A stretch of 64,000 nucleotides of DNA. It comes from Thermophilibacter immobilis (GTDB lineage: Bacteria; Actinomycetota; Coriobacteriia; Coriobacteriales; Atopobiaceae). Under the pieces are notes generated by a model. It saw only the letters and a program-made list of their open reading frames with translations. It ran no database searches and had not been told where the DNA came from. The stretch spans positions 372,001 to 436,000 of the forward strand of contig NZ_CP063767.1 in NCBI RefSeq assembly GCF_015277515.1, written 5' to 3'. A program made the position numbers and the translations under genes. Shown in pieces: positions 5,316-17,165 of this stretch. Each line of letters opens with the position of its first letter. Within the stretch, counting starts at the first letter, position 1.

Positions 5316-7430
5316 CTACCCCAGAAGCGGCGTGAGCGCCCCCTGGGCGAGCACGGTGACGCGGTGCATTGCGCGCGAGAGAGCGGTGTAGAGCTGGCGG
5401 CGCGCGAGAGGCGTGTCGGGGTAGACCTCGGCCTGGGCGTCGGGGACGATCACGTGGTCGAACTCGAGCCCCTTGGCCATGCGCAGGCTGAGAAGGACCA
5501 CGCCGGTGACCGGCAGGTCGCTGTCGTGGTCCACCACGCAGACCCCCTCGCCGAGCTGCTTGGAGAGCCAGCTCACGCGCGCGTCGCTCTGTGCGATGAC
5601 GGCGGTGAGGCCCGCGCCGGGCTCGGACACCGCGGCGCGCAGGGCGCGCAGGTAGTCATCGCGCTCGGCAAACGCCTGGATGGTCGGCTTGACGCCCTCG
5701 CGCTGCACGGAGGCAAGGCGGAGCCGCTCGTCGTGCTTGACCAGTCCGGCAAAGAGGGCCGTGATCTCGGGGGAGGAGCGATAGCTCGTGAGCAGGCGGC
5801 ATTCGTCCACGCTGCCGTGACTTTCCCGAAAGATCTCCGCGACCTGAGGAAAGGTGGCCGTCCCCTCGGAGATGGCCTGGTTCTCGTCACCCAGAAGCAG
5901 GAAGTGCGCGCGCGAGAAGTAGCGCGCGAGCACCATGAGCTGGGCCTCGGTGTAGTCCTGAACCTCGTCCACCATGACGAAGCGCGCGGTCTTCTCGCCG
6001 GTGTCCGTGAAGATGAGGCGCAGGTAGAGCCATTCGGTCGCCGAGAGCGCCGGCTGGCTCAGAAGGCGCATGCCCACGCGGTCGAGGCGCAGCCACGCGA
6101 GGCGCTCGATCTGGTCGTGCGCTCCGGAGAAGCGACTCTCCACGAGGCGGCGCGTGTATGTGACGGTCTCGGCGTCGCCCTCCGGAGAGATCGTCTCGCC
6201 AAAGAGCTCGACCTGCTGGTCAACGTCGAGGCCGAGCATCTCCTCCTGGAGGCCCTCGTCCTTGGCCATCTGCGTGAAGCGGCGGTCCAGCCGATCGTGT
6301 AGCTCGTCTGTGACCAGGGCGGTGAAGCGCGGGCCCACGCCAAAGCGCTCGAACTTGCGCACGGCACCCACCACCTGGCTCACCTTGAGAAGCACCTCTC
6401 CCTCGCAGCGGATCTCGCGCAGGTCGTCGGGCTCGAGCACGAGGTCACGAGAGGAATCCTCCAGGTGGCGTAGGGTCTTCGTCGAGGTGGAGCGGCCCAG
6501 GTCGCGCTCGCCGGCACCCTGCTCGGCCACGAAGCTCTTCCAGGTGAGGGTCTGCGGGTTGGCCTCGCCCATGGATGGCAGGACGGTGTCGATGTAGCGC
6601 TCGAACACCGCGTTGGGCGTGAAGAGCCAGACCTGGTCCTCGCTGAGCGTCTTGCGCTTGCGATAGAGCAGGTAGGCGATGCGCTGCAGGAGCACGGAGG
6701 TCTTTCCGGAGCCCGCGATGCCGTTGACGAGAAGCACGGGCACGTCATCGTGACGCACGACCTCGTTCTGCTCGCGCTGGATCGTGGCGGTGATGGCCTT
6801 GAGCTTCTCGGAGTGGTGGCTCTTGAGCGCGCTCAGGAGCAGCGAGTCCTCGATGGCCACGCTGGTGTCGAAGTAGGAGTTGAGCTGGTCGCGCACGATG
6901 TCGAACTGACGGCGCAGCGTGAGGTTGACCGTGCGCTCGCGCCCGTCCACGGAGTAGCTCGTGGGGCCCATCTGCTGGTTGTAGTAGGTCTCGGCCACGG
7001 GACTGCGCCAGTCCACCACGATCGGGCGGCTGTGCTCGTCGGTGATGCCAGCGGTCCCGATGTAGACGTCGCGCGCGGGGCGGCCCGGGCGCATCTCGAG
7101 CGTGACCTTGGCAAAGTAGGGCTGCATGAGCAGGAGCGTTACGCGACGGAGCTTGTCGACGTTGGAGTCGTGGTACTGGTTGTAGACGTCGATGATGTTG
7201 TTGAGCGTCTCGATGGCGGCGAGGGTCTCCATGGTCTCGTCCGAGCTGTTAAAGTTCAGGCGAACCTCCTCGCTCATGTCGATGAGGTCCTGGCGCGCGC
7301 CGGCGTGGTTGGAGTCGAGGTCGCTCGTTATGTTGTCGCGTATCTTGAGCAGCCAGCCGTAGACCTCGCTCAGGTGGGCCTGCTCCTTTGCGAGAATGGG
7401 ATCATCGTGCTGGTTGGGCGTGGTGTCCAT
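5316..7430 (-). CDS. helD: HelD-like superfamily 1 helicase
   Basis: A 704-residue UvrD/Rep-type ATPase of the HelD group. Known members bind RNA polymerase and clear stalled complexes. The N-terminal part (about 1-100) is a predicted coiled coil, as in HelD arms. Walker A is GIAGSGKTS with Lys243, followed by RIAYLLYR. Later motifs include FVMVDEVQDYT (Walker B), LLLGDENQAI and LTSYRSSPEI, with MRMAKGLEFDHVIV-like sequence and YTALSRAMH near the end (motif VI). The start at 7430 is chosen because CAGGAGGAAC lies directly upstream; an upstream extension to 7532 has no such site. Monocistronic, divergent from the GtrA gene. Confidence 0.88.
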   Translation of the reverse strand: MDTTPNQHDDPILAKEQAHLSEVYGWLLKIRDNITSDLDSNHAGARQDLIDMSEEVRLNFNSSDETMETLAAIETLNNIIDVYNQYHDSNVDKLRRVTLLLMQPYFAKVTLEMRPGRPARDVYIGTAGITDEHSRPIVVDWRSPVAETYYNQQMGPTSYSVDGRERTVNLTLRRQFDIVRDQLNSYFDTSVAIEDSLLLSALKSHHSEKLKAITATIQREQNEVVRHDDVPVLLVNGIAGSGKTSVLLQRIAYLLYRKRKTLSEDQVWLFTPNAVFERYIDTVLPSMGEANPQTLTWKSFVAEQGAGERDLGRSTSTKTLRHLEDSSRDLVLEPDDLREIRCEGEVLLKVSQVVGAVRKFERFGVGPRFTALVTDELHDRLDRRFTQMAKDEGLQEEMLGLDVDQQVELFGETISPEGDAETVTYTRRLVESRFSGAHDQIERLAWLRLDRVGMRLLSQPALSATEWLYLRLIFTDTGEKTARFVMVDEVQDYTEAQLMVLARYFSRAHFLLLGDENQAISEGTATFPQVAEIFRESHGSVDECRLLTSYRSSPEITALFAGLVKHDERLRLASVQREGVKPTIQAFAERDDYLRALRAAVSEPGAGLTAVIAQSDARVSWLSKQLGEGVCVVDHDSDLPVTGVVLLSLRMAKGLEFDHVIVPDAQAEVYPDTPLARRQLYTALSRAMHRVTVLAQGALTPLLG

Positions 7431-7579
7431 GTTCCTCCTGCACTGACGTAAAAGTCGAATAGACCATGCTACGCTTTGGGGCGGACGCCGACAAGTGTGG
7501 CGGAGCCCGCCGGATGGTCGCGCGCCCGTCACCCGCTTCGGGCTTTGGCGTATCCTTGAGCCCGATCAAGGGGAGAGTC

Positions 7580-7987
7580 ATGCGCAAGCTCATCGAGCAG
7601 CTTCTGAAGTTCGGCGTCGTGGGGACCATCGCGTTCGCCATAGACTACGGCGTCCTCATGCTGCTCTCGCAGGGCCTGGGCTGGGACCCGGTCTTCTCGG
7701 CGGGCGTGTCGTTCTGCGTCTCGGTGGTGTTCAACTACCTCGCGTCGATGCGCTTCGTGTTCACGCACCGCGACGACCTGAGCCGTCGTGGCGAGTTCGT
7801 GATCTTCCTCGCGCTGTCTGCCGTGGGCCTGGTCATCAACGAGCTCTGCATGGCCGCGGGCGTCGCCGCGCTCGGGGACTCGGCCCTCATGGTCACCCTG
7901 GCCAAGCTCTTTGCCACGATCGTGGTCATGGTTTGGAACTTCTTCTCGCGCCGGCGCTGGCTCGACGCCGGCGACCAGGCGTCCTAG
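7580..7987 (+). CDS. GtrA-family membrane protein (predicted lipid-linked sugar flippase)
   Basis: A 135-residue protein with four predicted membrane helices, beginning MRKLIEQLLKFGVVGTIAFAIDYG, the hallmark start of GtrA. The conserved FNYLASMRFVF loop and the final VWNFFSRRRWLD are typical of the family. GtrA proteins are thought to flip undecaprenyl-phosphate-linked monosaccharides across the membrane. The start is set by GGGGAGAG just upstream. The gene converges with the GT2 gene, leaving 3 bp between stops. With GT2 and YfhO nearby, it completes a three-part surface glycosylation system. Confidence 0.88.
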   Translation: MRKLIEQLLKFGVVGTIAFAIDYGVLMLLSQGLGWDPVFSAGVSFCVSVVFNYLASMRFVFTHRDDLSRRGEFVIFLALSAVGLVINELCMAAGVAALGDSALMVTLAKLFATIVVMVWNFFSRRRWLDAGDQAS

Positions 7988-7990
7988 CCC

Positions 7991-9001
7991 CTAGCTGCGC
8001 GCGTCCACGTGGCGCGGCTGCTCCCCGCTGCGCTCGAAGCCCGTCTCGCGCAGCCGTCCGCCCTCGCTCACGACCACGCGGCGGGCGATGTAGACGGGGC
8101 GACCCTTGCCCTCCACGTAGATGCGGGCCACGTACTCACCAATGATGCCCAGCGTGAGCAGGGTGAGGCCTCCCAGCAAGAGGATGAGGCACACGATGGT
8201 GGGATAGCCCTCGGGGGTGTTCTGGAGGCCGAACGCGTCGTAGAGCACCATGAAGAAGTAGACGACCGACGCGATTGCCGCCGTCGACCCGACCCAGGTC
8301 GCGAGCTTGAGCGGTACCGTCGAGAAGGCAAAGATGCCGTCGGTGGCGTAGCGCATGAGCTGGCGCAGGGACCACTTGCTGCTGCCCGCCGCGCGCGGAG
8401 AGGGCTCGTAGGCGAACGGGATCGTCTCGAAGCCAACCCAGGCAAAGAGCCCCTTGGAGAACCGGTGGTACTCGGGCATGGCGAGAAGTGCCTCGGCGAC
8501 GTCGCGGCGGAACACGCGGAAGTCCGAGGCGTCGGGGACCATCTTGGAGGTGCCGTCCGCCATGGCCTTAAAGATATGGTAGAACGCCTCCTTGAGCGCA
8601 GCGTGCAGCGCCCCCTCGTGTCGCCTCTCCTGGTAGGCGGCCACGCAGTCGGCCTCGGGGTGGGCCATGAGCTTGCGATACATGGCCACGAGCGTCTCGG
8701 GCTCCTGCTGGAGGTCGGCGTCCATGATGCCCACGGCGTCGCCCGTGGCGTGCGAGAGCCCGGCGAGCAGCGCCGCCTCCTTGCCAAAGTTGCGCGAGAA
8801 GTCTACGCATACCACGTGGTTCGCCCGGCCCGAGCGGGCGAACCTCTCGAGGAGCTGCCAGGTGTCATCAGAGCTTCCGTCGTTGACGAGCACGAGCTCG
8901 TAGTCAAGGCCCGCCGCGTCAAACGCGGCCGTGGCCCGATCGAAGAGGAGCGGCAGGCACTCGTGTTCCTCGTAGCAGGGAACGACTACCGAAAGGTTCA
9001 T
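7991..9001 (-). CDS. GT2 glycosyltransferase, undecaprenyl-phosphate sugar synthase type (GtrB/CsbB-like)
   Basis: A 336-residue enzyme. The GT-A domain starts MNLSVVVPCYEEHECL, has VLVNDGSSDDTW and the metal/nucleotide motif MDADLQQEP (about residues 95-103), then SRNFGKEAALLAGL. Two C-terminal membrane helices (about 230-255 and 265-290) precede a cytosolic tail. This is the layout of GtrB, CsbB and YfdH, which move a sugar from a nucleotide donor to undecaprenyl phosphate on the inner leaflet. The gene is divergent from ydjC/yfhO and converges on gtrA, so the three partners are not one transcript. The sugar cannot be read from sequence; CsbB-type enzymes use GlcNAc. Confidence 0.88.
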   Translation of the reverse strand: MNLSVVVPCYEEHECLPLLFDRATAAFDAAGLDYELVLVNDGSSDDTWQLLERFARSGRANHVVCVDFSRNFGKEAALLAGLSHATGDAVGIMDADLQQEPETLVAMYRKLMAHPEADCVAAYQERRHEGALHAALKEAFYHIFKAMADGTSKMVPDASDFRVFRRDVAEALLAMPEYHRFSKGLFAWVGFETIPFAYEPSPRAAGSSKWSLRQLMRYATDGIFAFSTVPLKLATWVGSTAAIASVVYFFMVLYDAFGLQNTPEGYPTIVCLILLLGGLTLLTLGIIGEYVARIYVEGKGRPVYIARRVVVSEGGRLRETGFERSGEQPRHVDARS

Positions 9002-9134
9002 GTGCCCCTCCTGTTGCTTGCGTGGCAGGTGTGCGTCGGAGGACGTTGGACTGATGCATACCCACCGGCTTCACCTATACTAGCCGCCGCGGTAAGAATC
9101 TACCTGCGGCACACGGCGAGAGGGGAGCGCTCAC

Positions 9135-10058
9135 ATGCCCGTCATCATTCATGCCGATGACTTTGGCATCACGCCTGAGCAGTCTCGCAGGATCCTCGAG
9201 TGCTGCGCGGATGTGCCAGGCGGCCGGGGTGTGCTGAACTCGCTGAGCGTCTTTGCCAACTCGCCGCGCTTCGACGAGTGCGCCGAGCTTTTGGACGGAC
9301 GTCCGGACGCCCTGCGCGTGGGCGTGCACCTCAACTTCGTGGAGGGGACCTGCTGCGCCGACCCGGCCGAGGTGCCCCTGCTCGTAGACGGCCGCGGACG
9401 CTTCCGGCTGGGCTACGGGGGACTTCTTGCGGGTTCCTTCGGCTCGCATGCCTCCGAGTTGAGCCACCAGCTCGAGGTGGAGGCCGCAACTCAGGTCGCG
9501 CGCGTGGTGAGACGCTTTCCGGAGCTTGCCGGCCACCTGCGCCTGGACGCGCACCAGCACACCCAGCTCATTCCCGCGGTCTTCTCGGCGGTGCTTGCCG
9601 TGGCCCAGAGACCCGAGTACCACCTCGACTACCTGCGGATTCCCGTCGAGCCCACCTCGACGTTTCTGGCTGCGTCCGTGGTGGGCTCCATCAAGCCCGT
9701 GAACTGGGTCAAGCACGCGCTGCTCAACTTCCTGTGGGCGCGCGACCGCCGGATGCTGGCCGCCTCCGGCCTTCCCGCTGCCGACGAGCTCTCCGCCGTC
9801 TTCTGTGGCGTGCTCTTCTCGGGTCACATGGACGAGAGGCGCGTGTGCGCCGTGCTGCCCTCGCTCCTGGAGCGCTCAGGGCAGGCGGGCACCAACCTTG
9901 AGCTGCTCTTCCATCCCGGTCGCGTGTCGTGTGCCGAGGATTGCCTGAACCCGGAGCTTCCCGGCTTCGTGGCCTTCTCATGTGGGGAGGGGCGCGACGT
10001 GGAGTACGACGCGCTGCGCTCGCCTGCTCTCTCGGCCGCGCTTGAGGGGGCGGCGTAG
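9135..10058 (+). CDS. YdjC/ChbG-family carbohydrate deacetylase
   Basis: A 307-residue protein starting MPVIIHADDFGITPE. HADDFG supplies the metal-binding Asp pair of the YdjC fold, and VGVHLNFVEG and RLDAHQHTQLIP supply the His ligands and active-site region. Characterised relatives (ChbG, HpnK) remove acetyl groups from N-acetylated sugars. RBS GAGGGGAG precedes the ATG. It sits 3 bp before the yfhO-like gene, indicating translational coupling, so it probably acts on the same N-acetylhexosamine that the YfhO/GT2 pair handles, for example to expose a free amine. That role is inference. Confidence 0.82.
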   Translation: MPVIIHADDFGITPEQSRRILECCADVPGGRGVLNSLSVFANSPRFDECAELLDGRPDALRVGVHLNFVEGTCCADPAEVPLLVDGRGRFRLGYGGLLAGSFGSHASELSHQLEVEAATQVARVVRRFPELAGHLRLDAHQHTQLIPAVFSAVLAVAQRPEYHLDYLRIPVEPTSTFLAASVVGSIKPVNWVKHALLNFLWARDRRMLAASGLPAADELSAVFCGVLFSGHMDERRVCAVLPSLLERSGQAGTNLELLFHPGRVSCAEDCLNPELPGFVAFSCGEGRDVEYDALRSPALSAALEGAA

Positions 10059-10061
10059 CCC

Positions 10062-12863
10062 ATGGCGGAGAAAACCGTGACCGAAGACACTGCGGGCGAC
10101 AATAGCAGACGTGCACAAGCCCCGCGTCCGCTCGCGTGGCTTGTGCGAGCGCGCGGCTACGAGTACCTGCTTGCGCCGCTTCTGGCCTTCGTGGTACTCT
10201 GCGCGGCCTTCGCCGTGCGGGGCATCTACCCGTTTGGCCAGACGAGTGTGGCCCTCTGGGACATGGACATCCAATACGTGGGCCTGTTCGGCTGGCTCTC
10301 CAACGTCATGCACGGCCAGGGATCGCTCTTCTACTCGTTTTCCCAGGGCATGGGCGAGGGCACGGCGGCGACGGTCGCCTACTACCTTGCCAGCCCGTTC
10401 AACCTGCTTGCGTGGTTCTTCCAGCCCGAGGACGCTCCGCAGCTCATGAGCTGGCTCACGCTGCTCAAGCTCTCGTGCGCGGCCCTGAGCTGCTATGCGT
10501 TTTTCCGTCTGCGCCACCGTCCCGGGACCGTGTACGTGCTGCTCGCCGTCGTCTACGCGCTGTGCGGCTACGCGGTGGCCGAGTGCAGCAACATCATGTG
10601 GCTCGACGGCGTCATCATGCTGCCGCTCGTGGCGCTGGGCACCTGGCGGCTCGTGCGCCGGGGAACGTGTCTGACGCTGTTCGTGAGCGTGGCGGCTGCC
10701 GTGACGTTCAACTGGTACACGGGCTACATGGACTGCGTCTTCTCCGTCCTGTACTTTCTGGTCTGCTGGCTCGACCTGTCGCGCGGCGAGCGGCGCGTCC
10801 GCGTGGGGGGCCGCTATGCGCTAACGATGCTTCTGGGCGTGGGCGCGAGCCTCGTGATGTTCCTCCCGGCGGTCCTGGGGCTGCTCGCCACCAAGGAGGG
10901 CGGCGGCTCCCTTCTGGAGAACATGGCCCACCTGCGCTTCTCCTACAACCCCTCGAATCTTCTGGCCTCGTTCGCGCTCACGGCCACGCCGTCGAGCGAC
11001 TGGGACCGGATGGCCCCGCTCTACACGAGCGCCCTCGCCGTCGTGCTCGTCGTCTCCCTCCTGCTCAACCGCGGGGTTCCGCGTCGTCGGCGCGTCCTGG
11101 CCGCGGGGTTGCTCGCGTTCATGGCGGTCTCGGTCTGCGTGGTTCCGCTCGACGTCATGTGGTCGGGATTCAAGCCGGCGACCTCGTACTTCTTCCGCTA
11201 CGCGTACGTGGTCTCGTTCGCGGTGGTGCTCGTGGCGGCCCAGGGTGCCGAGGCATTGGGCGGCCTGGAGGTCCGCGAGCGCCTACGTACGCTGCTCGCG
11301 GCCGCGCTTCTCGCCTGCCTGGGGATCGGCCTCGCGGTGATGAACGTCAAGCTGTACACGCGTCAGAGCCCGGTGGGCATGGGCGCGCTTCTGGCGACGT
11401 TCGCGCTGCTCGTGGGCTTTGCCCTGCTGGCCTGCGTGGCGGCCGGGCCCAGGAAGGGGCCCGCGCGCGTCGCGCTTGCGGTAACGGGCGTCCTGTTGGC
11501 GGTCGAGCAGGGGGCCAACGCCGCCTCGGTCTTCTCGCACTACACGCGCAGCGTGGACGACTGGGGCACCTATGTCTCTGAGTTGAGCTCCACCTACGAC
11601 CAGATGGAGCGCGAAGACGACGGCCTGCGCGTGGCGCAGACGGACTTCTCCTTCAGGGGCGAGGGGGCGAACCACGCCACCACCACCGAGGGCTTTCTCA
11701 TGGGGGCCTCGGGTCTCTCCGAGTACACCTCCACGATGGGCAGCCCGATGGTCGACCTGCTGACGCGCCTGGGCTACTCGGGCACGAATGAGATCTTCGG
11801 CTACTACGACAACGTGCCCATGACGCCCACCGACGCGCTCCTGGGCGTCGACTACACGATCTCTCGGGTGCAGCCCCCGCTCACGGAGCTCGTCGGGGCC
11901 GTGGACGTGCCCTACCCGGGGTACAGCCTGTGGAGAAGCACCGTCGACCTGCCCGCGGCCTATGGCATCGCGGCGGGGGCGGGCGACGTCACGTGGCCGG
12001 AGGTCGTCTTCGACAACCAGGATGCCTTTGCGATCAAGGACATCCAGGACGAGTGGCAGGGCTTCTCGCTCGTCAAGGACCCGTTCGCCAACCAGGAGGC
12101 GATGCTGGCCAACATGACGGGCCAGGACGCCTCGGGACTCTATGCGGATGCGCAGGTCTCTGAGCTCACGGATGCCACAACGACGGACTCGCGCACGTGG
12201 ACCGTGACGATCTCCCAGGACGGGCCCACCTACCTGCACGTTCCCATCATGTCCACGCTGCGCCAGCACTGCATGGTCTCGGTCGACGGCGCGGACGTGC
12301 AGTCGGTGGGAAACAACTTCGACAACGGCGTGATCTACCTCGGGGAGCATACGGCAGGTCAGGTCCTCCAGGTCACGGTGCGCCTGACGCCGGACGTGGC
12401 AGGAACCCAGACCGTGAACGGCACGCTCGCGGGCGGTCTCGACGGGGTGGCGGAGCAGATCCTTGCGGGGTCGTCCTCGTCTGACCTGCTCGTGGTGCGC
12501 ACGCTCGACGTGAGCCGCTTTCTGGAGCTGCGCGGGGCGCTCGACGACGACGCGACGAGCGTGGAGAGCTTCGAGGACGGCCACGTGAGCCTGAGATTCT
12601 CCGCCGAGAAGGACGAGACGCTCCTCACGGTGATTCCCTACGACACGGGCTGGCACGTCACAATCGACGGGGAGCCCGCCGAGGTGCGCAAACTTTACGA
12701 GGGGCTCTGCGGCGTGGACGTGAGTGCGGGGGAGCACCAGGTCGAGTTCACCTACGAGACGCCGGGGCTGGCCGCGGGTGCCGTGGCGAGCGTCGCGAGC
12801 GTGGCGGCCTTTGCGGCCTGGCGTGGGCTTGCGCGGCGCAGGCGTCTGCATGAGCACGCCTAG
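10062..12863 (+). CDS. YfhO-family membrane glycosyltransferase
   Basis: A 933-residue protein. About twelve hydrophobic segments fill residues 30-470, followed by a large extracytoplasmic region (about 480-900) and a last membrane helix near 905-925. The first outer loop contains ALWDMDIQY, giving a D-x-D like that of GT-C enzymes. YfhO in Bacillus takes the sugar made by CsbB from undecaprenyl phosphate and puts it on lipoteichoic acid outside the cell. Here the gene follows the YdjC deacetylase by 3 bp, with GT2 and GtrA next door. The acceptor in this organism is unknown: teichoic-like polymer, lipoglycan or protein. Confidence 0.85.
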   Translation: MAEKTVTEDTAGDNSRRAQAPRPLAWLVRARGYEYLLAPLLAFVVLCAAFAVRGIYPFGQTSVALWDMDIQYVGLFGWLSNVMHGQGSLFYSFSQGMGEGTAATVAYYLASPFNLLAWFFQPEDAPQLMSWLTLLKLSCAALSCYAFFRLRHRPGTVYVLLAVVYALCGYAVAECSNIMWLDGVIMLPLVALGTWRLVRRGTCLTLFVSVAAAVTFNWYTGYMDCVFSVLYFLVCWLDLSRGERRVRVGGRYALTMLLGVGASLVMFLPAVLGLLATKEGGGSLLENMAHLRFSYNPSNLLASFALTATPSSDWDRMAPLYTSALAVVLVVSLLLNRGVPRRRRVLAAGLLAFMAVSVCVVPLDVMWSGFKPATSYFFRYAYVVSFAVVLVAAQGAEALGGLEVRERLRTLLAAALLACLGIGLAVMNVKLYTRQSPVGMGALLATFALLVGFALLACVAAGPRKGPARVALAVTGVLLAVEQGANAASVFSHYTRSVDDWGTYVSELSSTYDQMEREDDGLRVAQTDFSFRGEGANHATTTEGFLMGASGLSEYTSTMGSPMVDLLTRLGYSGTNEIFGYYDNVPMTPTDALLGVDYTISRVQPPLTELVGAVDVPYPGYSLWRSTVDLPAAYGIAAGAGDVTWPEVVFDNQDAFAIKDIQDEWQGFSLVKDPFANQEAMLANMTGQDASGLYADAQVSELTDATTTDSRTWTVTISQDGPTYLHVPIMSTLRQHCMVSVDGADVQSVGNNFDNGVIYLGEHTAGQVLQVTVRLTPDVAGTQTVNGTLAGGLDGVAEQILAGSSSSDLLVVRTLDVSRFLELRGALDDDATSVESFEDGHVSLRFSAEKDETLLTVIPYDTGWHVTIDGEPAEVRKLYEGLCGVDVSAGEHQVEFTYETPGLAAGAVASVASVAAFAAWRGLARRRRLHEHA

Positions 12864-12994
12864 GGTGTTTATCGCCGTGGCGGCCTGCCGGGGCGCACGG
12901 AATCGCTCGTGAGAGACGCCAATGTGCGCGCCCGGGCAGTCTCGGCACGGTCTCATGCGCGCAGATGCGCCAAGCGCCTTGTTCCTACCCCTGC

Positions 12995-13010
12995 TGAGTA
13001 AAAATACTCA
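12995..13010. promoter_or_regulatory. TGAGTA-AAAA-TACTCA operator-like repeat
   Basis: A perfect 6-bp-arm inverted repeat with an AAAA centre lies 14 bp before the start of the broken AAA/DUF4143 gene and next to its ribosome binding site (GGGAGGTGG). Its position suggests autoregulation by the ATPase product, but the window gives no direct evidence of the binding protein. Confidence 0.5.
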
Positions 13011-13023
13011 ATGGGAGGTGGAC

Positions 13024-14219
13024 ATGTACCAGAGAGATCAGGTTGCGACCATAGCGCAGCGCATGGTCGAGAACGGTAACTCCCTCATGCAGGTGGTGGT
13101 GGGTCCCCGTCAGACGGGGAAGAGCACCATGCTCTTCCAGGCGCTCGGGCAGTCAAAGGCGGCAAGTCACTTTGTGAGCGCAGACGATCCCCTTGAGCCC
13201 TCTGCGGGCTGGCTCAGAACAGAGTGGCAGCAGGCGCGCAACATGGTGCGCGCTGCTGCTGGGGCCGTCACGGTCCTTATCGTTGACGGGGTCCAGAAGG
13301 TCGACCGCTGGCCCACCGTGGCCAAGTCGCTCTGGGATGCCGACCGGCGAGCAGGCCTCTCCCCCAAGGTCTTTCTAAGTGGGTCCTCCTCCCTGCTGCT
13401 CCATAAGGGTCTCGAGGACTCCCTGATGGGAAGGTTCGAGCTCATCCACTCTCCCACTGGAGCCTGGGTGAGTGCCGCGAGGCCTTCGGATACTCGCTTG
13501 ACGACTTCCTCCTCTACGGAGGCTATCCCGGTGCAGCGCGCTTTGCGGCCGACGAGGGTCGATGGACGGCCTACCTCAGGGACGCAGTCATCGAACCGAC
13601 CATCTCTCAGGACGTCCTCCAGCGGGAGGACGTGCGCAAGCCCGCGCTCATGCGCTCGCTCTTCAGGCCGGGTGCGACGTACTCCGGCAAAGAGCTCTCC
13701 TACACGAAGATGGTCGGGCAGCTCCAGGATGCGGGAAACACCGTAACCGTGGCCCACTGCCTCGATCTTCTGGGCAAGGCGGGCATCTTGGCCGCTATTC
13801 CCAAGTTCGATCCCAAGGAGCTCGTGCGTCGGCGCAGCTCGCCGCGACTGATGGTGTATGACACCTCACTCATGACGGCAACCTCCGAGAAGGGCCGCGA
13901 CCGGCTTCTGGGCGAGCTCGACCTGCGGGGGCATCTCGTGGAGTCGGTCGTGGGGGCCTTCCTGCTCGCCCGCGCACCCCAGGAGGGCTTCGAGGTGTTC
14001 TGGTGGCGTGAGGGGACCAAAGAGGTGGACTTCGTGCTGCAGCGAGGCGGGGCGCTCACGGTCCTTGAGGTGAAGAGCGGACACGAGAGTTCCCAGAGCG
14101 GCATGGCGGAGTTTCTCGCGCGCCATCCCGAGGCTCGTCGAATCATCGTGGGAGGTACGGCAGCGGGGGCCTGCGGCCTCGAGGAGTTTCTTCTTGGCGA
14201 GGTGCCGCTGTTCTGGTGA
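13024..14219 (+). pseudogene. AAA ATPase with DUF4143 domain, frameshifted
   Basis: The first frame gives an AAA_14 ATPase start: Walker A GPRQTGKST (residues 27-35), then TVLIVDGVQKVDRW and VFLSGSSSLLL. Near 13450-13458 the natural continuation (WSLGECREAFGYSLDDFLLY, then GGYPGAARFA) moves to another frame, which runs to 14219 and contains the DUF4143 end: SPRLMVYDTSLMT, FEVFWWREGTKEVDFVL and VLEVKSG. Loss of one C in the run at 13452-13456 would explain the break. Walker B also reads VDGVQK where the family has DE-V/I-QK, so the catalytic Glu is missing. Both lesions point to a real pseudogene, though the frameshift alone could be a sequencing error. Family members resemble antitoxin-like or mobile ATPases of unclear role. 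Confidence 0.75.
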
Positions 14220-14561: not shown

Positions 14562-17165
14562 CTACCCCTCGTCGTCCACGAACCCCACGCGATAGGCCGA
14601 GAAGACCACGGACCCCTCGTCCTGCGTGGCGTCGAGGTCCACGTCGGCCCAGATGCCAAAGTCATGATCGTCGTCGGAGTCGCGGAAGATCTGGTGCGCG
14701 TGCCAGACGTGGGCGTCCTTCTCGTCGGACTCGTCAAGAAAGAGGTAGGCCGCAGAGCGGGCGTCGCCTCCCAGCAGGATCTCCTCGTGCTCCTCGTGGA
14801 AGGCCCCGAGCACCCGCTGCCAGACCGGCGCGCGCCAGCCCCACTCGGCGTCAAGGCGCCCCAGCTCGTCCACGTTGCCCATCGCCGCCGCGCGCACGCG
14901 TGCGAACAGGGCGTTTCTCACGAGCAGCGTGAGGGCGCGCCGGTCGTGGACCACCTCGTCGGCCGCCTCGGGTGGGGCGGCGTCGAGCCCTCCGTCGGCC
15001 GAGCCAGCCGCCGTCCACTCGTCCACGAGCGAGGAGTCCACCGAGCGCACCACCAGCCCCAGCCAGGCGATGATGTCCTCCAGACGCTCGTCGCGCTTGT
15101 CGGCGGGAACGGTGCGGTCGAGGGCGCGAAACGCCTCCGAGAGGTAGCGCAGGAGCGTCCCCTCCGAGCGCGCGATGCCGTAGCGCCCTATGTACTCCTT
15201 GAAGTCGCTTGCCGTCTCCACCATGTCGCGCAGGACGGACTTGGGCGAGAGCGCGAAGTCGCTCGCCCAGGGCACCTTGGCGCAGTACTCGGCGAAAGCA
15301 GCCTCGAGCAGCTCCTCGAGCGGCTTGGGGTAGGTGACCTCGGCCAGGCGCTCCATCCGCTCGTCGTACTCCACACCGTCGGCCTTCATCTCGGCCATCG
15401 CGCGGTCGCGCGCGGCGCGCTGCTGGGCGCGCAGGATCTGGAAGGGGTCCTCGAGCGTGGCCTCGGCCAGGGATATGACGTCGAGCGCGTAGGTCTCCGA
15501 CGCGGGGTCCAAAAGCTCGAGCGCGGCGAGGAGAAACGGCGAGAGGGGCTGGTCGAGCGCGAAGTCGTCCGGCAGGTCCACCGTGGTGCGGTAGCTGGTG
15601 CATCCGTCCGGCCCCTCCTCGCGCACGACCACGCCCGCATCCATGAGCGTGGCAAAGATCTCGTCGGTGCGCGTGGAGAGACGGGCCTTCTCGTCTTCGG
15701 GCTGCGCGGAGTCGGCGACGAGCGCGTGGACGCGGGCCCAGGCGTCGCCGCCCCGCTCGACCTCGGCGAGCACCATCGAGTGCGTGACCTTCATCCGGGG
15801 GCGCAGGGGCTCGGGCACGGCGGACTCCAGGCGCTCGAAGGTCTGCTTGTTCCAGCCCACGAAGCCCTCGGGAGGCTTCTTCGTCTTGATCTTGCGCGCC
15901 TTCTTGGGGTCGCCGCCGGCCTTGGCGAGCGCGCGGGCGTTCTCGATGTCGTACTCCGTGGCCTGGGCGATGACCCGGCCCTCGGTGTCAAAGCCCGCGC
16001 GACCGGCGCGCCCCACGATCTGGTGGAACTCGCGCGCGTTGAGGTGGCGCATGCGGCGCCCGTCGAACTTGGAGAGCGCCGTGAGGACGACGGTGTGAAT
16101 GGGCACGTTGATGCCCACGCCGAGCGTGTCGGTCCCGCAGATCACGGGCAAGAGGCCCCGCTGCGCGAGCTTCTCCACGAGCAGGCGATAGCGCGGCAGC
16201 ATGCCCGCGTGGTGCACGCCCACGCCGCAGCCCAGGAGGCGGCGCAGCGTCTTTCCGAAGGTGGTGGTGAAGCGCGTGGACTTGATGGCATCCTTGATTG
16301 CCTCGCGCTGCTCCTTGGTGGAAACGCCGTAGCTGGCCAGGGACTGCGCGCTCGTCAGAGCCGCGTCCTGCGAGAAGTGCACGATGTAGAGGGGAGCCTC
16401 GCCCGCGCGCAGGGCGAGTTCGACGGTCCCCTCGAGCGCCGTGTCCACGAACTCGTAGGAGAGGGGCACGGGGCGCGCCGCGTCGGCGATGGTGTCTACG
16501 GTGCGCCCGCCCGTGTGCTCCGCGAGCGCCCCTGCGATGGTGGTGGTGTCGCCGAGCGTGGCGCTCATGAGCAGGAACTGCACGTGGGGCAGGGTCAGGA
16601 GCGGGACCTGCCAGGCCCAGCCGCGATCCGGGTCGGCGTAGAAGTGGAACTCGTCCATGGCGACGCAGCCCACGTCGCAGGCGTCTCCCTCGGCGAGCGC
16701 CTGGTTGGCCAGAATCTCGGCGGTGCAGCAGATGACGGGGGCGCTCGCGTTGATCGAGGCGTCGCCGGTGATCATGCCCACGTTCTCGGGGCCCAGGAGC
16801 TCCACGAGGTCAAAGAACTTCTCGCTCACCAGGGCCTTGATCGGGGCGGTGTAGTAGGCGCGGCGATCCGTGCAGACGCTCATGAAGCACATGCCCAGGG
16901 CTACGAGGGACTTTCCCGAACCGGTGGGCGTGCCCAGGATGAGGTGGTCGCCTGCCGCGACGGACAGGAGGGCCTCCTCCTGGTGGGGCCACAGCTGCAT
17001 CCCGCGCGCGTCGACCCAGCCAAGGAAGAGGTCGAGGGCCTCCTCGGCGGAGAGGTTGGGATAGCTCCTGTCGTCGGGCCAGGGGATGAGCCGGCCCAGG
17101 GAGCCAGGGGCGTTGGGCCCGCCGTCGAGCGTCTCTGCGGTTGTGGTCTGGTCAGGGTCGGCCAT
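14562..17165 (-). CDS. DEAD/DEAH-box (Ski2-like) helicase with DUF3516 C-terminus
   Basis: An 867-residue helicase. Motif Q/I region: MQLWPHQEEALL then TPTGSGKS (79-86). Motif II is DEFH (171-174), motif III SATLG (about 201-205). Motifs V/VI appear as CGTDTLGVGINVP and IVGRAGRAGFDTEG. The second half carries the DUF3516 region typical of actinobacterial members, ending in an acidic tail with FSAYRVGFVDDEG. Such enzymes resemble RNA-processing Ski2/Mtr4 helicases, but their substrate in Actinobacteria is not settled. A GGAGGAGA site precedes the ATG. Monocistronic. Confidence 0.88.
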   Translation of the reverse strand: MADPDQTTTAETLDGGPNAPGSLGRLIPWPDDRSYPNLSAEEALDLFLGWVDARGMQLWPHQEEALLSVAAGDHLILGTPTGSGKSLVALGMCFMSVCTDRRAYYTAPIKALVSEKFFDLVELLGPENVGMITGDASINASAPVICCTAEILANQALAEGDACDVGCVAMDEFHFYADPDRGWAWQVPLLTLPHVQFLLMSATLGDTTTIAGALAEHTGGRTVDTIADAARPVPLSYEFVDTALEGTVELALRAGEAPLYIVHFSQDAALTSAQSLASYGVSTKEQREAIKDAIKSTRFTTTFGKTLRRLLGCGVGVHHAGMLPRYRLLVEKLAQRGLLPVICGTDTLGVGINVPIHTVVLTALSKFDGRRMRHLNAREFHQIVGRAGRAGFDTEGRVIAQATEYDIENARALAKAGGDPKKARKIKTKKPPEGFVGWNKQTFERLESAVPEPLRPRMKVTHSMVLAEVERGGDAWARVHALVADSAQPEDEKARLSTRTDEIFATLMDAGVVVREEGPDGCTSYRTTVDLPDDFALDQPLSPFLLAALELLDPASETYALDVISLAEATLEDPFQILRAQQRAARDRAMAEMKADGVEYDERMERLAEVTYPKPLEELLEAAFAEYCAKVPWASDFALSPKSVLRDMVETASDFKEYIGRYGIARSEGTLLRYLSEAFRALDRTVPADKRDERLEDIIAWLGLVVRSVDSSLVDEWTAAGSADGGLDAAPPEAADEVVHDRRALTLLVRNALFARVRAAAMGNVDELGRLDAEWGWRAPVWQRVLGAFHEEHEEILLGGDARSAAYLFLDESDEKDAHVWHAHQIFRDSDDDHDFGIWADVDLDATQDEGSVVFSAYRVGFVDDEG

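Follow-up and report, generated by a model that had tools for sequence, protein, structure and literature searches.

A YdjC-family deacetylase linked to a polyprenyl-phosphate sugar transferase in a predicted surface glycosylation cassette of Thermophilibacter immobilis

Introduction

Does a YdjC-family deacetylase encoded beside a surface glycosylation apparatus act within that apparatus? The question is raised by four adjacent genes, gtrA, GT2, ydjC and yfhO, at positions 7580–12863 of a 64,000 nt stretch of the Thermophilibacter immobilis genome (contig NZ_CP063767.1, positions 372,001 to 436,000; the whole stretch is here called the window). An initial annotation had placed the four families in this span, where each was recovered with a strong Pfam score, and proposed that a CsbB/GtcA/YfhO-type system with a coupled YdjC makes a surface sugar with a free amine. 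CsbB-GtcA-YfhO systems are Gram-positive multi-component transmembrane glycosylation systems that likewise combine a polyprenyl-phosphate GT-A enzyme, a GtrA flippase and a YfhO GT-C enzyme, but the review that describes them names no deacetylase (PMC8035078), whereas the cassette examined here adds YdjC and a GT2 subclade of its own.

Results

Linkage of YdjC and GT2

A YdjC match is present in 41 of the 248 Coriobacteriia genomes surveyed. These 41 were split by similarity to the window protein into a close group of 12 genomes (phmmer E < 1e-50) and a remainder that is ChbG-like. In a wider scan, named genomes were searched with an alignment of the YdjC clade, which returned 80 clade loci from Coriobacteriia, Lachnospiraceae and other Clostridia, Spirochaetia and Aquimarina; six Coriobacteriia from the class survey are also among them. 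A GtrB-type GT2 gene, called at a hidden Markov model score of at least 340 bits, was found within 500 bp of ydjC at 56 of the 80 clade loci and at none of 28 ChbG-like control loci from the same class (Fisher test, p 7e-12, kinship ignored). Like NaxD-type deacetylases, the YdjC of the window and of these 56 relatives is thus encoded with a polyprenyl-phosphate sugar transferase. At the linked loci the GT2 gene is upstream and in the same direction (35 loci), divergent (16), downstream (4) or convergent (1). As the pair has been kept through several gene orders, a shared function is backed more strongly than it would be by one adjacency.

A GT2 gene of the window type directly adjoins ydjC in 10 of the 12 close-group Coriobacteriia. 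In Ellagibacter (G214) and Senegalimassilia (G153), ydjC stands without it beside the gene for a large membrane protein, and the window-type GT2 gene is found elsewhere, next to yfhO. YfhO is encoded somewhere in the genome in 11/12 close-YdjC genomes and in 55/236 others (p 2e-6, kinship ignored). When the best 30 YfhO loci were considered, this YdjC was present in six of the eight genomes with an adjacent GtrB-type GT2 and in one of the other 22 (p 3e-4).

The YdjC and GT2 distance matrices are correlated (r 0.76 over 61 pairs; permutation maximum 0.15). In the GT2 tree, the YdjC-linked Coriobacteriia GT2s form one clade (22 rows, support 100/98) that takes in both unlinked GT2s, G214 and G153, from genomes with this YdjC, while the YfhO-adjacent GT2s of two genomes that lack it (G111 and G240) fall outside. 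Because the outgroup consists of only two sequences, this separation by YdjC presence is suggestive, short of proof. Judged from these sequence comparisons, the GT2-YdjC pair is the functional core of the system, and the tightest evolutionary link is between YdjC and GT2 rather than between YdjC and YfhO. The functional coupling of YdjC to a CsbB/GtcA/YfhO-type apparatus, as first proposed, is upheld; its closest partner is not the YfhO that had been singled out, and the free-amine sugar is the most likely product on inferred chemistry.

In two deep Coriobacteriia loci, L051 (8546–12003) and L054 (5990–9442), a member of another YdjC subfamily is clustered with a different GT2 and a protein with 10–11 transmembrane (TM) segments. 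This protein may be a Wzx-type flippase, possibly in a further GT2-flippase-deacetylase association.

Properties of the four proteins

The window YdjC (Pfam PF04794, 137.6 bits, E 8.9e-40) scores best among named models with HpnK (TIGR03473), at 88.5 bits against a cut-off of 232.6, and reaches 50 bits against a cut-off of 227 with the ChbG model (NCBIfam PRK02134). As these scores are far under the curated cut-offs, YdjC is best placed as a family member without a named subfamily. Residues D8, D9, H65, H140 and H142 are invariant in a 44-sequence alignment, and the AlphaFold model (predicted local distance difference test, pLDDT, 96.8) matches ChbG (7vi8) best in the Protein Data Bank (PDB), so that the YdjC fold and the Asp/His metal site of NaxD-type enzymes are both present. 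No TM segment is predicted. A conserved extra segment at approximately residues 171–230 marks the clade and is mostly lacking in ChbG-like controls; a role for it as a membrane-binding amphipathic helix was ruled out, its hydrophobic moment ranking 106th of 290 windows. The neighbours of YdjC are GT2, YfhO and GtrA, and not the chitobiose/phosphotransferase system operon typical of ChbG. Score, gene context and clade together rule out an ordinary ChbG.

GT2 (PF00535, 93.5 bits, E 1.8e-26) is closest among solved structures to the polyprenyl-phosphate glycosyltransferases GtrB (sll0501; 5ekp, E 2.4e-60) and ArnC (9hwj, E 1.4e-42), and with TM segments predicted at 241–259 and 269–287 it has the C-terminal membrane anchor of the corresponding enzyme in CsbB/GtcA/YfhO-type systems. 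The curated models that it matches, PgfS (240.7 bits, cut-off 500) and ArnC (164.4 bits), both score under their cut-offs. GtrA (PF04138, 86.7 bits, E 1.7e-24), with four predicted TM segments, agrees with the small membrane flippase of such systems. One further, weaker GtrA is encoded in the genome, at 638 kb.

YfhO (PF09586, 443.4 bits, E 2.5e-132) is the product of the sole YfhO gene in the genome. Its D-x-D motif, D67-M-D69, lies in the loop that follows TM segment 1; in 11 sequences D67 and Y72 are invariant and Q71 nearly so. The model is of moderate confidence (pLDDT 79), and the PDB structures that it matches best are those of AftD and Emb, GT-C enzymes of mycobacteria; the C-terminal part is beta-sandwich-like. 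Fold matches and motif are those of a GT-C enzyme with DxD in an outer loop, as in CsbB/GtcA/YfhO-type systems. With the PgfM1 and PgfM2 models YfhO scores 188.1 and 193.6 bits, under equivalog cut-offs of 1400 and 1500. A phmmer search of PDB sequences returned no match for GtrA and none for YfhO.

GtrA and GT-C partners in other genomes

Besides the window, Hugonella massiliensis (L041/L106) and an Eggerthellaceae metagenome-assembled genome (MAG; L107) each hold all four families within about 9 kb. A survey of co-occurrence had been set beforehand as a check that could refute the proposal, and the recurrence of the four genes leaves it standing. Eight further loci combine GT2, YdjC and YfhO (L033, L037, L038, L042, L101, L104, L113 and L164), and an apparent GtrA-GT2-YdjC operon is found in Spirochaetia (L125, L130, L134, L142 and L151) and in a Lachnospiraceae MAG (L136), the GtrA being Pfam-confirmed for L125. 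The grouping of these families is not due to chance, as it is repeated in further genera, orders and phyla. Beside the GT2-YdjC pair are YfhO, mainly in Coriobacteriia, or PMT_2-like (L034, L036 and L136), GtrII (L128) or DUF6056 (L118 and L121) proteins, several of these GT-C assignments being weak Pfam matches. The comparison indicates that the GT-C partner of the pair is exchangeable.

In an uncultured Olsenella, RUG001 (G246; L042, 5380–10250), and in G231 (L038, 7759–12625), the GT2/ydjC/yfhO cassette is located inside the ribosomal-protein S10 operon. The insertion point is apparently between rpsJ and rplC, as named from N-terminal sequences, and splits a normally contiguous operon. At two Eggerthellaceae loci (L041, 10751–11284; L107, 7286–7720) a small protein with two TM segments and weak zinc-ribbon matches adjoins GT2.

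Locus layout and history

The features of the locus are listed in Table 1. The initial annotation gave no strand for GT2. The gene runs from 9001 to 7991 on the minus strand; it converges on gtrA and diverges from ydjC. The genes make up three transcription units, gtrA, GT2 and ydjC-yfhO, and the opposite strand of GT2 rules out one four-gene operon. The 3 bp reported between ydjC and yfhO were confirmed (ydjC stop 10056–10058, yfhO ATG 10062). Of the two possible starts of the gtrA open reading frame, 7466 and 7580, the second is favoured by a plausible ribosome-binding site, GGGGAGAG, and by agreement with relatives. No sigma-70 consensus promoter was found in the divergent region between GT2 and ydjC.

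Table 1. Features of the gtrA-GT2-ydjC-yfhO locus and its flanks (window positions)
Feature	Positions	Strand	Description
HelD-like helicase, left flank	5316..7532	-	RNA polymerase recycling family; outside the system
gtrA	7580..7987	+	GtrA-family protein with 4 TM segments, 135 aa; putative flippase for lipid-linked sugar
GT2	7991..9001	-	GtrB/ArnC/PgfS-type polyprenyl-phosphate sugar transferase, 336 aa; catalytic domain and 2 C-terminal TM segments
GT2/ydjC divergent intergenic region	9002..9134		133 bp; presumably a shared control region, from its position
ydjC	9135..10058	+	Predicted cytosolic YdjC/ChbG/HpnK-type metal-dependent deacetylase, 307 aa; clade distinct from ChbG
yfhO	10062..12863	+	YfhO-family GT-C membrane glycosyltransferase, 933 aa
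AAA_14/DUF4143 ATPase	12922..14219	+	Two overlapping frames, 12922-13746 and 13632-14219; outside the system
DEAD-box/DUF3516 helicase, right flank	14562..17165	-	Outside the system

The cassette occupies the gap between helD (NCBIfam HelD_BACSU, 346.9 bits, under the cut-off of 419) and the DUF3516 helicase gene (PF12029, E 1.4e-185). The DUF3516 helicase is present in 30 of the 31 genomes of the genus, with 86–90% identity in the best matches of relatives, and in five genus-mates (L219, L225, L226, L227 and L229) the two helicase genes are nearly adjacent, about 80–220 bp apart. At L101, helD adjoins GT2-ydjC-yfhO and the right flank is lost to a contig end. A YdjC match of any subfamily was found in two of the 31 genomes, the second being 88% complete with 7% contamination. 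Codon usage and GC content of the four genes fit the window (z -0.27 to 0.67) and are native. The cassette shares 70–79% identity with the copy in the same slot of G218, which belongs to another genus (79% for GtrA), and the flanking helD shares 70%. A recent foreign island is unsupported; the native composition and the helD-like divergence make it at least as likely that the cassette is old and was lost in genus-mates, or that it was exchanged by recombination via the flanks.

The junction between helD and the DUF3516 helicase gene holds differing inserts among species (L213, L214, L218 and L230; up to ~12 kb in L230) and may be a site of variable content. The first part of the AAA_14/DUF4143 ATPase gene (PF13173 and PF13635) has atypical codon usage (z -3.45), and this broken gene is probably a pseudogene.

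Discussion

A putative route to a free-amine surface sugar

The computations establish what the genes are, which active-site residues are conserved, the folds and the class of topology, the conserved linkage of GT2 with YdjC and the co-phylogeny of GT2; the sugar, the lipid substrate of YdjC, the sequence of steps, the acceptor and the effect on charge are inferred. GT2 would load an N-acetylhexosamine, either N-acetylglucosamine (GlcNAc) or N-acetylgalactosamine (GalNAc), from a UDP donor onto polyprenyl phosphate at the cytosolic side of the membrane. YdjC, as a soluble cytosolic metalloenzyme, would strip the N-acetyl group from the lipid-borne sugar to give polyprenyl-phosphate-hexosamine, which GtrA would flip to the outer leaflet. 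As YdjC lacks a TM segment, it is simplest to place its step ahead of the flipping. YfhO would then pass the hexosamine on to an acceptor at the cell surface. This acceptor is probably a polymer rich in phosphate, either of the wall or resembling lipoteichoic acid (LTA), and the added hexosamine would lower its net negative charge. We consider this whole chain, from GT2 through YdjC and GtrA to YfhO and a free-amine surface sugar, to be probable.

Elsewhere in the genome, at ~920–930 kb of C1 (L237, 7490–16374), is a lic-like cluster that includes two nucleotidyltransferase/choline-kinase fusions, an EamA transporter, a sulfatase-like protein just under the Pfam cut-off, and an unusual fusion of YidC-like (60KD_IMP) and Glyphos_transf domains in one open reading frame. 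Its gene content suggests a phosphocholine-bearing teichoic-acid-like polymer and a candidate acceptor locus, with no direct link to the cassette.

Several observations weigh against this route. At 24 of the 80 clade loci there is no GtrB-type GT2 gene within 500 bp of ydjC; some are truncated by contig ends, and others, such as those of Aquimarina, are apparently true exceptions. GtrA and YfhO are sometimes apart from the GT2-YdjC pair: L101 has no gtrA beside its cassette, and G218 holds gtrA-GT2-ydjC in the slot with yfhO elsewhere in the genome. Shared vertical descent contributes to the correlation of YdjC and GT2 distances, the Fisher tests ignore the relatedness of genomes, and the clade loci were themselves found via YdjC patterns. 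Substrate specificity is unreadable from sequence, with YdjC under every curated equivalog cut-off.

Alternative explanations

The enzymes could act in the same chain on a surface protein, by O-glycosylation as proposed for the Streptococcus mutans Pgf operon, and not on a wall polymer. Among named models, GT2 is matched best by PgfS and YfhO by PgfM1/PgfM2, and the pgf operon (PgfS, PgfM1, PgfE and PgfM2) modifies the surface proteins Cnm and WapA; that system has an epimerase and no deacetylase (PMC5856776). The window proteins score far under the Pgf cut-offs, none of the flanking genes inspected was recognised as coding for an adhesin, and YfhO proteins of known target act on LTA or wall teichoic acid (PMC8035078), so a protein acceptor seems unlikely. 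Ordinary CsbB/GtcA/YfhO glycosylation with an N-acetylated or neutral sugar is a further reading, in which YdjC would be a ChbG-like neighbour acting on chitooligosaccharides or cell-wall fragments. YdjC does have the ChbG fold, and the CsbB/YfhO systems of Bacillus subtilis, Staphylococcus aureus and Listeria add GlcNAc with no deacetylase known (PMC8035078). However, GT2 linkage and co-phylogeny hold for this YdjC and not for ChbG-like YdjCs, which also largely lack the extra segment, and the ChbG score is low. On these grounds, we would give little credence to a neighbour role, and action of YdjC on an unrelated oligosaccharide appears unlikely.

In the Arn pathway the ArnC product is deformylated by ArnD, and the similarity of GT2 to ArnC allows for a YdjC that removes another N-acyl group, such as N-formyl, from a lipid-borne dideoxy-amino sugar. 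ArnD, however, has a NodB-type fold and belongs to a different family from YdjC. The cassette has no genes for amino-sugar nucleotide synthesis, and it is N-acetyl groups that are removed by those YdjC enzymes cited here whose activity has been characterised. An ArnD-like activity is very improbable, and the removal of N-acetyl from a lipid-linked hexosamine is the reading we retain.

Comparison with known systems

The genes flmF2 and naxD are directly linked, and FlmK is an ArnT-type enzyme. Like the cassette, the FlmF2-NaxD-FlmK system for lipid A galactosamine in Francisella combines a polyprenyl-phosphate sugar transferase with a YdjC-superfamily deacetylase that acts on a lipid-linked N-acetylhexosamine, and a GT-C enzyme, FlmK, attaches the amino sugar on the outer side (PMC11279074, PMC8306577, PMC4688374). 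NaxD is described as deacetylating undecaprenyl-phosphate-GalNAc for lipid A in Francisella and in Acinetobacter, including A. baumannii (PMC11279074), and in F. novicida the locus tag of flmK directly adjoins that of flmF2 in the numbering (PMC4688374). That system is Gram-negative with lipid A as acceptor, whereas the cassette is Gram-positive with a YfhO-type GT-C and GtrA as putative flippase; NaxD is set beside YdjC by description. In hopanoid glucosamine formation, HpnI places GlcNAc on a lipid and HpnK deacetylates it (PMC12583986), but the lipid is a hopanoid, the published scheme has no flippase or GT-C step, and the window YdjC falls short of the HpnK cut-off. The mycobacterial and corynebacterial arabinogalactan galactosamine pathway (PpgS, Rv3632 and Rv3779) also leads, in actinobacteria, from polyprenyl-phosphate-GalNAc to de-N-acetylated galactosamine on a wall polymer, and its flippase and deacetylase were unidentified as of 2022 (PMC9671496). 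The polymer differs and the PpgS match is weak (27.1 bits, cut-off 370), making this an analogy and not membership.

The initial annotation knew of no described system of this form, a claim that does not survive the precedents of NaxD (PMC11279074), HpnI/HpnK (PMC12583986) and flmF2/flmK (PMC4688374). Among the open-access papers searched, we found none naming YdjC, GtrA and a glycosyltransferase together. Deacetylation of lipid-linked N-acetylhexosamine is already known, and by this comparison what appears to be new is the Gram-positive GtrA/YfhO form.

Significance

The chances appear evenly balanced that the GT2 subclade and its own YdjC, with GtrA where identified and interchangeable acceptor-choosing GT-Cs (YfhO, PMT_2, GtrII or DUF6056), make up a widespread, so far undescribed class of systems that decorate the surface of Gram-positive and spirochaetal gut bacteria with amino sugars. 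If this is correct, the GT2 subclade and its YdjC would be a gene-level marker predicting which strains have free-amine surface sugars. By analogy only, the pair would also offer a candidate enzyme type for pathways with an unidentified deacetylase, such as the one that yields galactosamine on mycobacterial and corynebacterial arabinogalactan (PMC9671496). Gram-positive gut and rumen bacteria would put positive charges on surface polymers via a known glycosylation system plus one deacetylase, a Gram-positive counterpart of the amine modification of lipid A and a route to lower surface charge besides D-alanylation.

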